29,376 nucleotides of DNA from a virus. The stretch is taken from positions 1 to 29,376 of the IMG/VR virus record IMGVR_UViG_3300044522_000852; one strand, written 5' to 3'. The first letter of the stretch is position 1; every line of letters starts with the position of its first letter. The notes under the pieces were generated by a model. The model saw only the letters and a program-made list of their open reading frames with translations, made no database searches and was not told the origin of the DNA. A program made the position numbers and the translations under genes. Shown here piece by piece: positions 13,454 to 19,156 of the stretch.

Positions 13454-13454
13454 T

Positions 13455-13469
13455 TTGACCATTGGTGCA
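13455..13469 (+). promoter_or_regulatory. TTGAC-N4-GGTGCA element (copy 2)
   Basis: TTGAC-CATT-GGTGCA, followed by TAAATAAG and then the ATG of the scaffold-like gene 8 nt after the element. The spacer between protease and scaffold genes is only 24 nt and is filled by this element. Confidence 0.6.
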
Positions 13470-13477
13470 TAAATAAG

Positions 13478-13939
13478 ATGGCCACAGAAATCACATCCTC
13501 CACTCCTGAAGAAATGGTTGCTCAGCTCAATGCCAGCCTTGGTGCTGCGCAGGCTGAACACTCTGAGCTGAAGAAGGCTTTTGAAGCCCTGGCAGCTGAG
13601 AAGATGGCCACCACTGAAGCCATCAAGCTTGAGGCTGCTGAGGCCACCAAGAAGCTGGCTGATGCTGAAGCCATCATTGCCACCCTCACAGGTGAGAAGG
13701 AAAGCCTGGCCAAGCAGCTTGCTGAAGCCCAGGCCAATCAGATCACAGCCAGCAAGGAAGCTGCCAAGGTGGTTGCCTCCCTGGGTGTGAAGCCTGTTGC
13801 CAATTCCCCTGCTGCTGATGCCCAGGCTGAGGCCATCGATCAGAAGCAGATTGTTGCCACCTTCCTGGCTATGAAGCCTGGTGCTGATCGCCAGGCTTTC
13901 TTCAATAAGCACAAGGGCATCATTGCCCCTGGCTTCTAA
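13478..13939 (+). CDS. Scaffold-like coiled-coil protein
   Basis: The product is 153 aa. Residues 8-100 are an almost unbroken Ala/Glu/Lys/Leu coiled coil (LKKAFEALAAEKMATTEAIK, LADAEAIIATLTGEKESLAK). A short C-terminal domain follows (QKQIVATFLAMKPGADRQAF). Long helices with a small capsid-binding C-terminus, encoded between protease and capsid gene, are typical of phage scaffolds that guide prohead assembly and are then digested. A decoration protein is the main alternative, but its helical nature argues against it. Confidence 0.75.
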   Translation: MATEITSSTPEEMVAQLNASLGAAQAEHSELKKAFEALAAEKMATTEAIKLEAAEATKKLADAEAIIATLTGEKESLAKQLAEAQANQITASKEAAKVVASLGVKPVANSPAADAQAEAIDQKQIVATFLAMKPGADRQAFFNKHKGIIAPGF

Positions 13940-13980: not shown

Positions 13981-14856
13981 ATGGCTAATACATTCACAGC
14001 TGCTCCTGCTACATTGTCTGAGATCATCCTGGCTGGCCTTAAGGGTCGCTTGGGTGTCCTCTCTGCTTTCAGCACCAATCTCACCACAAACACCACAGGC
14101 AAGGTGGTTCAGGTTTCCCTTGTCTCTGGTGGCGCTGCCAAGGAATTTTCCAAGGCCAATGGTGGTTATACCGAAGGGGACAACGCTGATCTCACGGGTG
14201 TCCAGGTGACCCTTAAACACTACCACAGCACCAAGGAATTCACCCCTGATGAAGTGGGTGAATATGGTGAGCAATACCTGGCCAATGCCTTTGTGCCTGA
14301 GGCCATCAATCAGATCGTTAAGAAGGTTCACGCTGTCATTGGTGCTGAGCTGGTTAATGCCAATTTCTCTGCCAATGAAGTGGTAACTGCGGCCAATTTC
14401 AATTACAGCCAGGTGGTTGATCTGAACACAGATCTCAATGATGCCAAGGCTGGTGATCCTCGCTGCCTCCTGGTCAATGGTGCTTATGCTGGTGCGCTCC
14501 GTAAGGATGCTACCCTGACTGCGCCTTTCAATCAGGCTGGCCAGAATTCCCTGATCTCCTCTGGTCTCATTGGCACAATCGCTGGCTTCCAGGTTTTTGA
14601 ATTCACCGATCTTCCGACCAATTCGGAAAACCTCGGGGCTTTCGCCTGTGGTGCTGATGCGCTGGCTGTTGCTATGTCGCTGCCTTACGCTGCTGCCTTC
14701 CCTGGTGATGTTGCCTCTGCCACTGATCCTTCTGGTCTGTCTGTCCAGGTGCTGCGTGCCCAGGGCACAGATGGCATCCTGCGTTTCACGGCCACTGTGC
14801 GATTTGGGGTCAAGACCGCTCGAGGCACAGCTGGTAAGCGGATCAAGACCGCCTGA
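13981..14856 (+). CDS. Major capsid protein
   Basis: The product is 291 aa, a usual size for an HK97-fold capsid protein without a delta domain. Position and sequence fit: SEIILAGLKGRLGVLSAFSTN at the N-terminus, an E-loop-like region (FSKANGGYTEGDNADL), a P-domain helix (AINQIVKKVHAVIGAEL), and C-terminal GILRFTATVRFGVKTAR strands. Base use differs from neighbours: I count 29 CpG, 17 of them in the last 275 nt, against 5 in the first 1,020 nt of the window. More GCT, GGT and CGT codons suggest high expression. A strong terminator follows. Confidence 0.88.
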   Translation: MANTFTAAPATLSEIILAGLKGRLGVLSAFSTNLTTNTTGKVVQVSLVSGGAAKEFSKANGGYTEGDNADLTGVQVTLKHYHSTKEFTPDEVGEYGEQYLANAFVPEAINQIVKKVHAVIGAELVNANFSANEVVTAANFNYSQVVDLNTDLNDAKAGDPRCLLVNGAYAGALRKDATLTAPFNQAGQNSLISSGLIGTIAGFQVFEFTDLPTNSENLGAFACGADALAVAMSLPYAAAFPGDVASATDPSGLSVQVLRAQGTDGILRFTATVRFGVKTARGTAGKRIKTA

Positions 14857-14878: not shown

Positions 14879-14908
14879 AAGCCTCACCAGAAATGGTGGG
14901 GCTTTTTT
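14879..14908 (+). terminator. Rho-independent terminator after the capsid gene
   Basis: An 11-bp stem, AAGCCTCACCA/TGGTGGGGCTT with one G-U pair and a GAAA loop, is followed directly by a run of T (six T at 14903-14908, two of them in the stem). It starts 22 nt after the capsid stop. The rest of the 14909-15053 gap is GC-rich with imperfect inverted repeats (for example GGGCAGG at 14973 and CCTGCCC at 15028) and no convincing gene. Confidence 0.92.
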
Positions 14909-15073: not shown

Positions 15074-15403
15074 ATGAATAGTGCCCTGGCTGCTATGATG
15101 TTGGCTGATGCGCAGGCTGTCACAGCTGAGGCTGGGCAGACAGTGACCATCAATGCTGTGACCTATGCAGCAATGGTGTCTGATGCTACCCTGTCCCAAA
15201 ACCTGGAGGCTGGTGGCCTGCTGGATAGCATCACCACCACAGTGAAGATCCCTGCCACCCCAGCAGCCCTGGCTGCTGCCAGCTCAATGGGCTTGGGCAA
15301 GAAGGTCACCTGGGCTGGGCGCACATTCAGGATCACAGGCAAGACCACCAAGCCTGGATCAGCCTGGGTGCAGCTGGCTGTGGTGGATGATGACCACAGA
15401 TGA
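15074..15403 (+). CDS. Probable head-tail connector protein (gpFII-like position)
   Basis: The product is 109 aa from the ATG at 15074; an in-frame ATG at 15038 would include the regulatory element and is less likely. The C-terminal half is beta-rich (KKVTWAGRTFRITGKTTKPG, WVQLAVVDDD), like small connector or stopper proteins such as lambda gpFII. It occupies that slot between capsid and the gpZ-like gene. The function is inferred from order and shape. Confidence 0.6.
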   Translation: MNSALAAMMLADAQAVTAEAGQTVTINAVTYAAMVSDATLSQNLEAGGLLDSITTTVKIPATPAALAAASSMGLGKKVTWAGRTFRITGKTTKPGSAWVQLAVVDDDHR

Positions 15404-15406
15404 GCT

Positions 15407-16378
15407 ATGGCTGATATCACCATCACAGTGAATAGAAGCCTCAATGCGCAGTGCGCAAAGACCTTCAAAGATTTCGGGGCTTATACCAAGCAGCTGGCTG
15501 AAGATCTTGTGAAGGAAGAAGGGGCTTTGACCTGTAGAGAGGCCATCAATTACAGCCCACCCCTAGATGGGGGTAATGGCAACAGGGGCAGTGGTGGTGG
15601 CAAAGGTGATAAGAAGATTGCCCAGCATTGGGGCAATTGGGCTATTGCCAATGATGTGCTGAGTATTGTGCAGGAGGATAGCAAAACCCTGGCCTCAGCC
15701 ATCAGCTCCAGAAATGCCCAGGAGCGTTTCAGGAAGTGGAGGCAGGGCAAGCCCCCTAAGACCAGGGGGGTGGTCAGCCAGATCTGGGAGGATGCCAATA
15801 CAGACAGGGCTTTCAAAAGGGCACAAACACTGTTCAGCAAATGGGCAGGCAGGCGCACAAACATCCTGGAGAATGATAGTGCCCTGGAGCAGAGGCATAA
15901 CAGGATCAGAAAGCTTTACAGGGGGCGCATCAGAAAAAATGCCAATCGAGATCCAATGACAGGCCAGGTATCTGGTGAGCAGCCAGCCTATGCCCCATTC
16001 AGGGTAATCAAAAACTATATCAAGAAAAGGCAGCTTAAGGTGGGCTTTATGAAAGCTGGATGGGTGACTGCCATCAAGAAAATCACCCCACCCAAAATCA
16101 ATAATGTGGAAAAGACCTTTGGCCTGCGCAAGCTGCCAGCCTGGGTGACCAGGCACAATGTTGGCCACGGAGGAGTGGGGTTCAATAAATATACCACAGG
16201 CAGCAATAATGTGCTGATGACTGTGCGCAATGACCTGGGCAACATCTTTGGGGTGGGCTACCTGGCAGGAACAAAACGCTATGTGACTGCAGTGCGAGCT
16301 GGCAAGATGGCCAGAAGGATGCGCCATTTTATGAGAGCTGCCATTGAAAAGGCCAATGGTGGCCAATCCCCTACCTAA
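15407..16378 (+). CDS. Minor tail / tail completion protein (gpZ-like position)
   Basis: The product is 323 aa and strongly basic. It has a Gly-rich loop (GGNGNRGSGGGKGDKK) and a long Arg/Lys-rich middle. It starts 3 nt after the upstream stop. In lambda-like phages a protein of this kind (gpZ or HK97 gp10 related) sits between connector and tail terminator and completes the tail interface. The high charge could reflect contact with DNA near the connector. Identification is by synteny; I see no decisive motif. Confidence 0.55.
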   Translation: MADITITVNRSLNAQCAKTFKDFGAYTKQLAEDLVKEEGALTCREAINYSPPLDGGNGNRGSGGGKGDKKIAQHWGNWAIANDVLSIVQEDSKTLASAISSRNAQERFRKWRQGKPPKTRGVVSQIWEDANTDRAFKRAQTLFSKWAGRRTNILENDSALEQRHNRIRKLYRGRIRKNANRDPMTGQVSGEQPAYAPFRVIKNYIKKRQLKVGFMKAGWVTAIKKITPPKINNVEKTFGLRKLPAWVTRHNVGHGGVGFNKYTTGSNNVLMTVRNDLGNIFGVGYLAGTKRYVTAVRAGKMARRMRHFMRAAIEKANGGQSPT

Positions 16379-16819: not shown

Positions 16820-16823
16820 GCTT

Positions 16824-16838
16824 TTGACTATAGGTGCA
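16824..16838 (+). promoter_or_regulatory. TTGAC-N4-GGTGCA element (copy 4)
   Basis: TTGAC-TATA-GGTGCA followed by TAATTAAAC, 19 nt before the ATG of the tail-tube candidate. This is the best-formed copy and lies in a 38-nt gap. Confidence 0.6.
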
Positions 16839-16857
16839 TAATTAAACCAATACCCAG

Positions 16858-17208
16858 ATGGCCACTAAAACTCAGGGCACAGCCCATATTTACGGAATTG
16901 CTGGCACTGTCAGTGGTTTGACAGTCCAAAGCTATACCACCAGCAAAAGCTACGCCAATGCTGATGAAGTGGTGGATGGCACAGGTGTGGTTAAAACAGT
17001 GCGCTATTCTGATGAGCGCACAAATCTCACAGTGGAAGGGCTTGTGCCTTCCAGCTTCACAGCTGCCATTGGCGCTAAGCTAGACTTCACAGGCAATGGC
17101 CTGGCCTTCTCTGGCCACATCACCCAGGTGGAGGAGCGTGGTGAGTCCAAGGGCTTTATGCGCATCAGTGTCACAGCTGTGCAATATGAAGGCATCACAT
17201 CTGCTTAA
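16858..17208 (+). CDS. Major tail (tube) protein candidate
   Basis: The product is 116 aa and almost all beta-strand (GTAHIYGIAGTVSGLTVQSY, TNLTVEGLVPSSF, LAFSGHITQVEER, MRISVTAVQYEG). This fits a minimal tail-tube fold shared with the Hcp/gpV family, though it is shorter than lambda gpV (246 aa) because no Ig-like domain is present. It has its own upstream element, and a terminator-like stem lies just after it, as expected for a high-copy tube protein. Confidence 0.65.
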   Translation: MATKTQGTAHIYGIAGTVSGLTVQSYTTSKSYANADEVVDGTGVVKTVRYSDERTNLTVEGLVPSSFTAAIGAKLDFTGNGLAFSGHITQVEERGESKGFMRISVTAVQYEGITSA

Positions 17209-17240
17209 GGCAGAGTGATTGACCTACCAGGCTGGGCTTC

Positions 17241-17276
17241 CTAGGGTCTGCTGTAATGGCAGACCTTAGATTTTTT
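17241..17276 (+). terminator. Terminator-like hairpin containing the next gene's start codon
   Basis: CTAGGGTCTGC (17241-17251) pairs with GCAGACCTTAG (17259-17269), 11 bp with one G-U. The 7-nt loop TGTAATG holds the ATG at 17256-17258. A and then six T follow at 17270-17276. The shape is a classic intrinsic terminator placed over a translation start. A ribosome at the start would prevent it from forming. Confidence 0.7.
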
Positions 17277-17810
17277 AGCGCCTTCCTCACCCCAGCTGGC
17301 ACATCCATCCTGGGCAAGAAGCTCAAGCCTTTCTGCCTAAAGCACAGGATCTTCCTGGAGGGAATTGCCAGCCCCTATCTGCAGCAGGATAAGGAGCTGA
17401 CACCCACAGATCTCATCATTGCCCTAAAGATCTGTGCTGATGAAAGCATTGATGGCTTCACCCTGAGGGAGAAGTGGCAAGCCCTGGTGCTTACCCTATC
17501 CAAGCGCAGGCTGGCTGAGGCATCCCTGGCCTTTGTAAAGCACATCAGCCAGCAGGCTTCCTATCCCAAATTTTACGAAAAGAAAAACACAGAAGGTGAA
17601 AGCTCAGTGCCCTGGCAGCTTAGCATCCTGGCCACCCTGATCAGAAATGGCATCACCTATACAGATGCCCTGAATATGCCTGAGGCCAAAGCCCTATGGC
17701 TGGCCACTGCTTTCAATATCCAGCAGGGTGCTAAGCTGGATATCCTGACCACAGATGATGAGGAGCTGATTGACCATCTGGCAAAATTAGAGGCAGAAAA
17801 CAAACAATGA
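17256..17810 (+). CDS. Tail assembly chaperone candidate
   Basis: The product is 184 aa, mostly helical, with a C-terminal acidic end (LDILTTDDEELIDHLAKLEA). It lies between the tail-tube candidate and the tape measure, where lambda gpG/GT-type chaperones are found. I see no second overlapping frame or clear slippery site, so a G/GT frameshift pair is not supported. The ATG at 17256 lies in a terminator-like loop; no other good start follows nearby. It overlaps the tape measure gene as ATGA. Function is by position. Confidence 0.55.
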   Translation: MADLRFFSAFLTPAGTSILGKKLKPFCLKHRIFLEGIASPYLQQDKELTPTDLIIALKICADESIDGFTLREKWQALVLTLSKRRLAEASLAFVKHISQQASYPKFYEKKNTEGESSVPWQLSILATLIRNGITYTDALNMPEAKALWLATAFNIQQGAKLDILTTDDEELIDHLAKLEAENKQ

Positions 17811-19156
17811 GCAATGACCTATCTTTCACAATCTCAGCCAAGGATCAGGCATCCAAGGCTGTAGAGACAGTGCAGAAGAAAATCCAAAACCTTGGCACAG
17901 ACCTGGCCAAAGGTTTCCTGTCTTTTGCTGCGCCACTCACCCTGGTGCAGACAGGGATTTCAATGATTGGTGATGCCATTGCTGCGCAGAAGCAAAAGGT
18001 GGCTGACTCAATTGAGGCTTACTCAGGCATTACTGATAAGGCTGCAGATATTGGGGTGGCCACTGATGAATTTTTAAAGCTTAACCAGGCTGCTCAAGTT
18101 AGTGGCATTGGGGTGAATAAGGTGGCCAAGCTATTCCAGGAAGTGACCACCATCATTGAGGAAGCCACCACATCTGGCTCATCCCAGGAAAAGATGCTGA
18201 AGGCACTAGGCTTCTCAGCTGAGCAGATTGCTGCTGGTATGCTCAAGCCCATCCAGGTCATTGAGCAGATGGGCATTGCTATGGGTGGTGCATCCACAAA
18301 CACAGACAGGATGGCAGTGGCCACAGCTATGCTTGGCAAGAATGCAGCTGACCTGATCCCTGTGCTGCTCAAGGCGCAGCAAGTGGCTCAGGGCTATGGT
18401 GAAGATCCTGGCATCAATCAGGATCAGATTGCCTTGATTGAGGAAAAGAAGCGCAGAGATCAGCAGGCCAAGAATAAGGAGCAAGCTGCCATTGCAGCCA
18501 GGGAAGCCACTCAGCTTTTCCTGGCTGAAGATCCTGAAGGCAGGGAGCTTGCCAACAGGATCAGATTGGAACAGTCCAGGCTGCGTGGTGCTGGCGGGGG
18601 TGGTGCTGGGGCTGGTGGTGCAGTCACAGTGACAGATGCGGAAATTGCTACCAGGGCTGAGGCTGAAGTGTTGGCCATCCTGAAGAAGCGCAGAGAGGAA
18701 GCTGCCAGGCTGCGCCAGGAAGCTGGTGCTGGATCTGTGGAAAATCTCAATGAGCTGGAAATGCAGAGGCTTAACACTGAGGCAGTCACCCTGGCCTTGG
18801 AAGATCTGGCCAAGCTGCAGGCTGATGAGGATAAGGGTAAGGAAGAAGCTGCTAAGAATGATGCCAAGCGCACAGCCCAGGAGCTGGATGAAGCCCAGAA
18901 GCTCAGGGATGAGAAGGTGAAGGATGCTGCTAAAAATGCCAAGCTGACTGTTTCCAGCCTCAGGGAAATTGGTGGTGCGCTGGCTGGTGAATTCATCCCA
19001 TCTGATCCTGCGCCTGAATACCTGAAAACAATTGCGGAAACAGAAAAGGAAATGCTCAAGGCCATCATTGAGCTTAAAGAAGTGATGGCCACCAAGCCCC
19101 AGCTCAATGGGGTAGATTTCACTAAAGATCCCAATCAAACAATGTTCACTGCTTAA
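17807..19156 (+). CDS. Short tail tape measure protein
   Basis: The product is 449 aa. It starts with SFTISAKDQASKAVETVQKKI, the usual opening of tape measures, and has a hydrophobic segment (FLSFAAPLTLVQTGISMIG, about 38-56). Long helical and coiled-coil parts follow, interrupted by a Gly/Ala linker near residues 263-273. The family rule of about 1.5 angstrom per residue predicts a tail near 65-70 nm, short for a siphovirus. Lys/Glu/Ala-rich helices dominate 285-395. Confidence 0.82.
   Translation: MSNDLSFTISAKDQASKAVETVQKKIQNLGTDLAKGFLSFAAPLTLVQTGISMIGDAIAAQKQKVADSIEAYSGITDKAADIGVATDEFLKLNQAAQVSGIGVNKVAKLFQEVTTIIEEATTSGSSQEKMLKALGFSAEQIAAGMLKPIQVIEQMGIAMGGASTNTDRMAVATAMLGKNAADLIPVLLKAQQVAQGYGEDPGINQDQIALIEEKKRRDQQAKNKEQAAIAAREATQLFLAEDPEGRELANRIRLEQSRLRGAGGGGAGAGGAVTVTDAEIATRAEAEVLAILKKRREEAARLRQEAGAGSVENLNELEMQRLNTEAVTLALEDLAKLQADEDKGKEEAAKNDAKRTAQELDEAQKLRDEKVKDAAKNAKLTVSSLREIGGALAGEFIPSDPAPEYLKTIAETEKEMLKAIIELKEVMATKPQLNGVDFTKDPNQTMFTA

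Follow-up and report, generated by a model that had tools for sequence, protein, structure and literature searches.

Partial terminators that set the ratio between gene products have been described in several operons, among them T-phi after gene 10 of phage T7, the central terminator of M13 at genes VIII/III and the rpsU-dnaG and rplL-rpoB attenuators, which are generally described as intergenic. In some riboswitch expression platforms the terminator overlaps the ribosome-binding site, and the coat and replicase starts of phage MS2 carry hairpins of the translational operator type that tune initiation. Here we describe a start-codon hairpin of uncultivated tailed phages that shares features with each of these devices. 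It resembles an intrinsic (Rho-independent) terminator in its GC-containing stem, in the U-run directly after the stem and in its location behind a highly expressed gene, whereas codons 2-7 of the gene that follows supply its 3' arm and U-run, and the start codon of that gene lies in its loop. As with the T7, M13, rpsU-dnaG and rplL-rpoB elements, a leaky terminator would split the high- and low-copy products of one operon; in contrast to them, the start codon is enclosed, so that the same stem can limit translation. It has in common with the riboswitch platforms that a single stem is able to affect both termination and initiation, but no aptamer, Shine-Dalgarno (SD) site or conserved alternative structure was found. 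The start codon lies within the hairpin as in the MS2 RNA-phage starts, yet the phage is a DNA phage, a U-run follows the stem and no protein-recognition nucleotides are conserved. Our literature search of open-licence papers returned no account of a start codon placed within a terminator in this way. The component devices are known; what is new is that the terminator encloses the start codon, an arrangement that covariation shows to be conserved within a family of phages.

The window is the whole stretch of 29,376 nucleotides that was analysed, a virus record (IMGVR_UViG_3300044522_000852, positions 1 to 29,376). On its + strand the genes follow the order gene 13478, major capsid protein gene (13981..14856; phrog_283, E 2e-12), a terminator, connector-type genes, tail-tube protein gene (16858..17208, 116 aa), the hairpin, a tail-assembly chaperone candidate (17256..17810, 184 aa) and the tape-measure protein gene (17807..19156; phrog_9483, E 5e-10). 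The predicted fold of the product of gene 16858 (pLDDT 79.5) matches solved tail-tube structures (phage 812 neck/tube, monocin, siphophage R4C) with modest scores (best E 6e-4), which together with its position suggests a tail-tube protein. The 184-aa ORF had no match in Pfam and PHROG searches and its structure model was of low confidence; only its place between the tube and tape-measure genes makes it a candidate for the chaperone. Its stop codon overlaps the tape-measure start (ATGA), and we infer that tube, chaperone candidate and tape measure lie on one transcript. The hairpin sits between the high-copy tube gene upstream and the low-copy chaperone candidate and tape measure downstream, in agreement with the initial annotation.

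Direct reading of the letters bore out the earlier description of an 11-bp stem, a 7-nt loop with the ATG and a T6 run at the start of the chaperone candidate. The noncoding 5' arm CTAGGGTCTGC (17241..17251, + strand) pairs with the 3' arm GCAGACCTTAG (17259..17269), which forms codons 2-5 of the chaperone candidate, around the apical loop TGTAATG (17252..17258) with the start codon at 17256-17258. A17270 and then the T6 run (17271..17276), codons 6-7 (Phe-Phe), follow as the presumed terminator U-tract, and a spacer of 32 nt (17209..17240) with a TTGAC box at 17219-17223 separates the tube stop codon from the stem. The 11 pairs comprise ten Watson-Crick pairs and one G-U pair, with T17252-G17258 as a possible extra pair on folding, and have a stability of about -20 kcal/mol; they provide the GC-containing stem-loop, and the A followed by T6 the U-rich tract, that characterise an intrinsic terminator. 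The T-score of the run is 4.26, the 99th percentile in the window being 3.08, and among 30 terminator-like sites from a general scan of the window the hairpin took the first rank. With stricter limits (stem of 8 or longer, T-score of 3 or higher) the whole window yielded three sites on the + strand and zero on the - strand, compared with 0.25 per strand in shuffles, and a stem of at least 11 with at least 6 GC pairs was absent from all 40 shuffles. When the coding arm was fixed and the noncoding 32 nt were shuffled, equal pairing arose in 2 of 1000 cases. Among the three sites, the one at 13876 was rejected, its pairing being altered in the nearest relatives, which leaves the start-codon hairpin and the post-capsid site as the only strong and conserved intrinsic-terminator-like sites in the window. 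A helix outside the main hairpin and a hairpin at the tube stop codon, both present in group A (see below), are not conserved. An Rfam scan of the window had a tRNA as its only match and thus identified no riboswitch aptamer; the phage record carries a tRNA-Thr (TGT) gene at 2300-2371.

Relatives were collected by protein-guided scans of IMG/VR, which gave 36 close loci and then dozens more distant; loci from separate scans often share a contig, and identical junctions were merged before counting. We distinguished group A (the window, L001/L054, L021-L025, L008), group B (L026-L035, L011, L052, L053), group C (L036-L047, L049), group D (L050/L120), group E (L048/L063, L066) and group F (L062, L065, L068, L072, L073, L076, L077). 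Zero relatives of the chaperone candidate or the tube protein were present among 50,697 phage records, and a search of genomes for chaperone relatives found none. TerL has its best matches, at 25%, in Synechococcus siphophages. A contig of the phage family with a tube relative (L186:1-12171) was binned in a Verrucomicrobiota MAG; this is the only host hint, a weak one, and the contig may be misbinned.

The start codon is enclosed by the hairpin in nearly all short-gap lineages although both arms vary. The coding arm reads GCAGACCTTAG in group A, GCTGACCAGCG in B and C, GGAGATCTGAG in D, GCTGACCTACG in L121 and GCTGATAATCG in L092, and in each case the noncoding arm matches. Over 15 distinct representatives, 95% of cells are paired and compensatory changes on both sides occur at 7 of the 11 pairs; we counted 22 such both-side changes, where shuffles gave 6.6 and the slid controls, which all fail, gave 0-4, pairing dropping to 16-45% in the slid registers. 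These representatives were aligned by hand with bulged bases of the 5' arm omitted, which biases the alignment toward structure, and automatic partner counts therefore serve as an independent check; in them position +12 takes all four Watson-Crick pairs. Between groups A, B/C and D, which have diverged, exchanged arms no longer pair properly whereas own-group arms do, and B-C swaps stay paired because the coding arm is common to both. In L166 and L163 a synonymous difference, GCT versus GCA, is accompanied by a matching change in the 5' arm, and the z-scores of the start hairpin are strong also where the sequences have diverged. Lineages differ freely in stem sequence, in bulges and in the length and sequence of the loop; little is constant apart from the MAD[QL]R codons and the start codon itself. 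The comparison of stem pairing in relatives proposed in the initial annotation thus returned retained pairing with changes on both sides, despite the coding constraint, which argues that the hairpin is under selection; judged from these sequences, it is almost certainly a real and selected structure. By-product pairing, arising by chance or from coding constraint on a 3' arm that encodes a conserved peptide, has a practically negligible probability, since changes of the coding arm, synonymous or not, are matched in the noncoding arm, and is refuted barring alignment error. The MADRRFL lineage (L096 and L100-L119 in part) pairs weakly, with no strong stem and no good U-run, and homologues of 30% identity (L171-L174) form a small start-codon hairpin without a U-run.

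Codon choice in the coding arm is restricted in group B, where synonymous differences in codons 2-8 amount to 0.00 among 11 members (0.02 when the truncated twelfth member, with TTC TTT, is included) versus 0.34-0.40 in later codons; only 1 of 179 synonymous windows in this group is equally low, and no dip was seen at the starts of three control genes. The constraint covers the T-run codons and ends right after them. In groups A and C the synonymous effects are weaker and indistinguishable from the remaining gene. Of the 36 loci tabulated, 35 use TTT for Phe codon 6, general use being about one half, and the broader locus set contains TTC members at this codon.

Several observations bear on termination. 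The T-score exceeds the window 99th percentile in groups A, B (all but one), D and most of C, and also in L062, L071, L117, L121-L127 and L163/L166. Loss of the T-run in close relatives had been named beforehand as an observation that would speak against a terminator, and here the outcome is divided: the run is kept in the nearest relatives of the window (T5-T6) and in group B (T7, once interrupted), whereas the stem is kept with a U-run that is interrupted in group C and poor in E, in F except L062, and in L092. Together with the MADRRFL lineage, which lacks a strong stem as well as a good U-run, these cases indicate that termination at the start hairpin is not universal. Capsid terminators are intact in groups E and F and in L092 despite the poor U-run of the start hairpin. 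The window's own post-capsid terminator (14879..14908, + strand; stem 14879-14904, GAAA loop, T6) lies about 22 nt past the stop codon, and the site, often with a GAAA-type loop, keeps this position in nearly every lineage examined. An ATG at 14893 (62-aa ORF) in its loop was considered as a second enclosed start and discarded; L033 and group C have no such ATG, and outside the nearest relatives the ORF can no longer be recognised. The most telling case is a long-gap lineage (L064, L067, L078, L093, L101, L186, L235), in which the 111-141 nt between tube and chaperone candidate contain an intergenic terminator of the ordinary kind while the start-codon hairpin is absent (starts of L064, L067, L078, L093 and L101 tested), so that tube-chaperone termination seems a retained function there. 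The chaperone tree requires at least 7 changes among five states, which marks these differences as lineage-level events. No other conserved promoter was found for the genes downstream of the hairpin, and some read-through is therefore expected. Sequence comparison thus points to the start hairpin as a likely terminator of transcription in this phage.

The initial annotation also suggested that read-through could depend on ribosomes or a factor at the start codon; for ribosomes we regard this as geometrically implausible. With the polymerase at 17276 the AUG is 18 nt behind it; of the RNA behind a polymerase, the hybrid takes up about 9 nt and the exit channel covers several more. At the T-run the AUG would for the most part still be covered by the polymerase or have only just emerged from it, leaving no room for a 30S subunit to load first. 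In E. coli, terminators more than about 27-30 nt past a stop codon have full efficiency, and closer ones are repressed by the ribosome at the stop codon (PMC4824070). The ribosome on the tube gene halts 32 nt before the stem and thus outside this range, and since the capsid terminator is also close to its stop, stop-to-stem spacing alone is no signature. A possible alternative pairing, of the kind on which a ribosome-mediated (leader-peptide) attenuator depends, lies near the tube stop in group A and is not conserved in group B. A slippery heptamer in the T-run was dismissed by reasoning, on a frame mismatch.

With respect to translation, no clear SD sites were found at the phage starts, and for SD-less messages an unfolded start has been reported as necessary (PMC3121790). 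The opening energy is 21.6 kcal/mol at the chaperone start versus 2.6 at the capsid and 4.7 at the tube start, the chaperone start being the most structured among the structural genes; only one other start, 3118 (of uncertain annotation), is equally closed. The start of gene 15407 (15377-15436) is unusually structured, with a z of -2.4. That some lineages keep the stem although their U-run is poor suggests that the hairpin probably also limits translation, and the small start hairpins of the 30%-identical homologues likewise point to a translational role. It is likely, but less sure than termination, that the start hairpin limits translation of the chaperone candidate. If the predicted stability applied in vivo, the hairpin would all but abolish translation unless it is opened.

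The reading that we consider probable joins both levels, namely an attenuating terminator that gives a fixed ratio and at the same time serves as a lid over the chaperone candidate's start. Transcription would start at a promoter-like motif before the tube gene, most transcripts would stop at the T-run and give an abundant short tube message, and a minority would read through into the chaperone candidate, the tape measure and the tail-tip genes. On the read-through message the same stem would lid the SD-less start codon and lower translation of the chaperone candidate, and probably that of the tape measure through the ATGA overlap. As the stem encloses the start codon, every read-through message would carry the lid on its first low-copy gene. 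That the hairpin is a translation lid alone, with the T-run a by-product of the conserved Arg-Phe-Phe/Leu and no termination, is unlikely: the decayed U-runs of E, F and L092, the small hairpins of L171-L174 and the closed chaperone start all agree with it, but the group B synonymous constraint takes in the T-run codons and ends just past them, the T-run passes the 99th percentile in many lineages and the long-gap lineage has an ordinary intergenic terminator without a start hairpin.

The opposite reduction, a plain terminator that overlaps the start codon through genome compaction and has no translational effect of its own, is quite improbable; the genomes are compact with short gaps, and an ordinary terminator follows the capsid gene and, in a single lineage, the tube gene as well, yet nearly all lineages with a short gap have the start codon within the stem-loop, even where the U-run is poor, and SD-less starts normally require unfolded RNA. 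We give a similarly low probability to a switchable double gate, in which a phage or host factor would open the hairpin late in infection and bring about antitermination and release of the start codon simultaneously; if true, chaperone and tape measure would be made only after enough tube protein, and the conserved TTGAC box of the leader would be part of the control. Very improbable is an operator at which the tube or chaperone protein binds and stops translation as the MS2 coat protein does, for which the enclosed start codon speaks and against which stands the freedom of loop, bulges and stem sequence to differ, the conserved nucleotides of an MS2-type site being absent. The combined terminator and lid would be a compact setting of the tail-tube versus chaperone and tape-measure ratio, with one stem acting at two levels and also coding. 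That a noncoding arm covaries with a coding one argues strongly for a selected RNA element in these uncultivated tailed phages, and the lineages with a displaced terminator or a lost U-run constitute a natural experiment on termination versus translational control.

The motif TTTGAC-N5-GTGCATAATTAA occurs in exactly two copies in the window, with 0 expected in shuffles: upstream of the tube gene (16823..16845, + strand) and before gene 13478 and the major capsid gene (13454..13476, + strand). Many relatives have it at both homologous places, at 1 to about 34 nt from the start. An exact scan of the collection found it in 25 contigs, nearly all of the same phage family; the match in L269 is unrelated and probably due to chance. 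The motif looks like a promoter, with a spacing unlike that of a sigma-70 promoter. Together with the two terminators it frames both high-copy products, which suggests two promoter-gene-terminator cassettes, one for the tube and one for the two-gene capsid unit. The TTGAC box of the spacer that precedes the hairpin is kept in groups A, B and F and in L163/L166 while its flanks diverge, and in the group B leaders (L026-L035) it appears as GGTTGACAGT in all 12.
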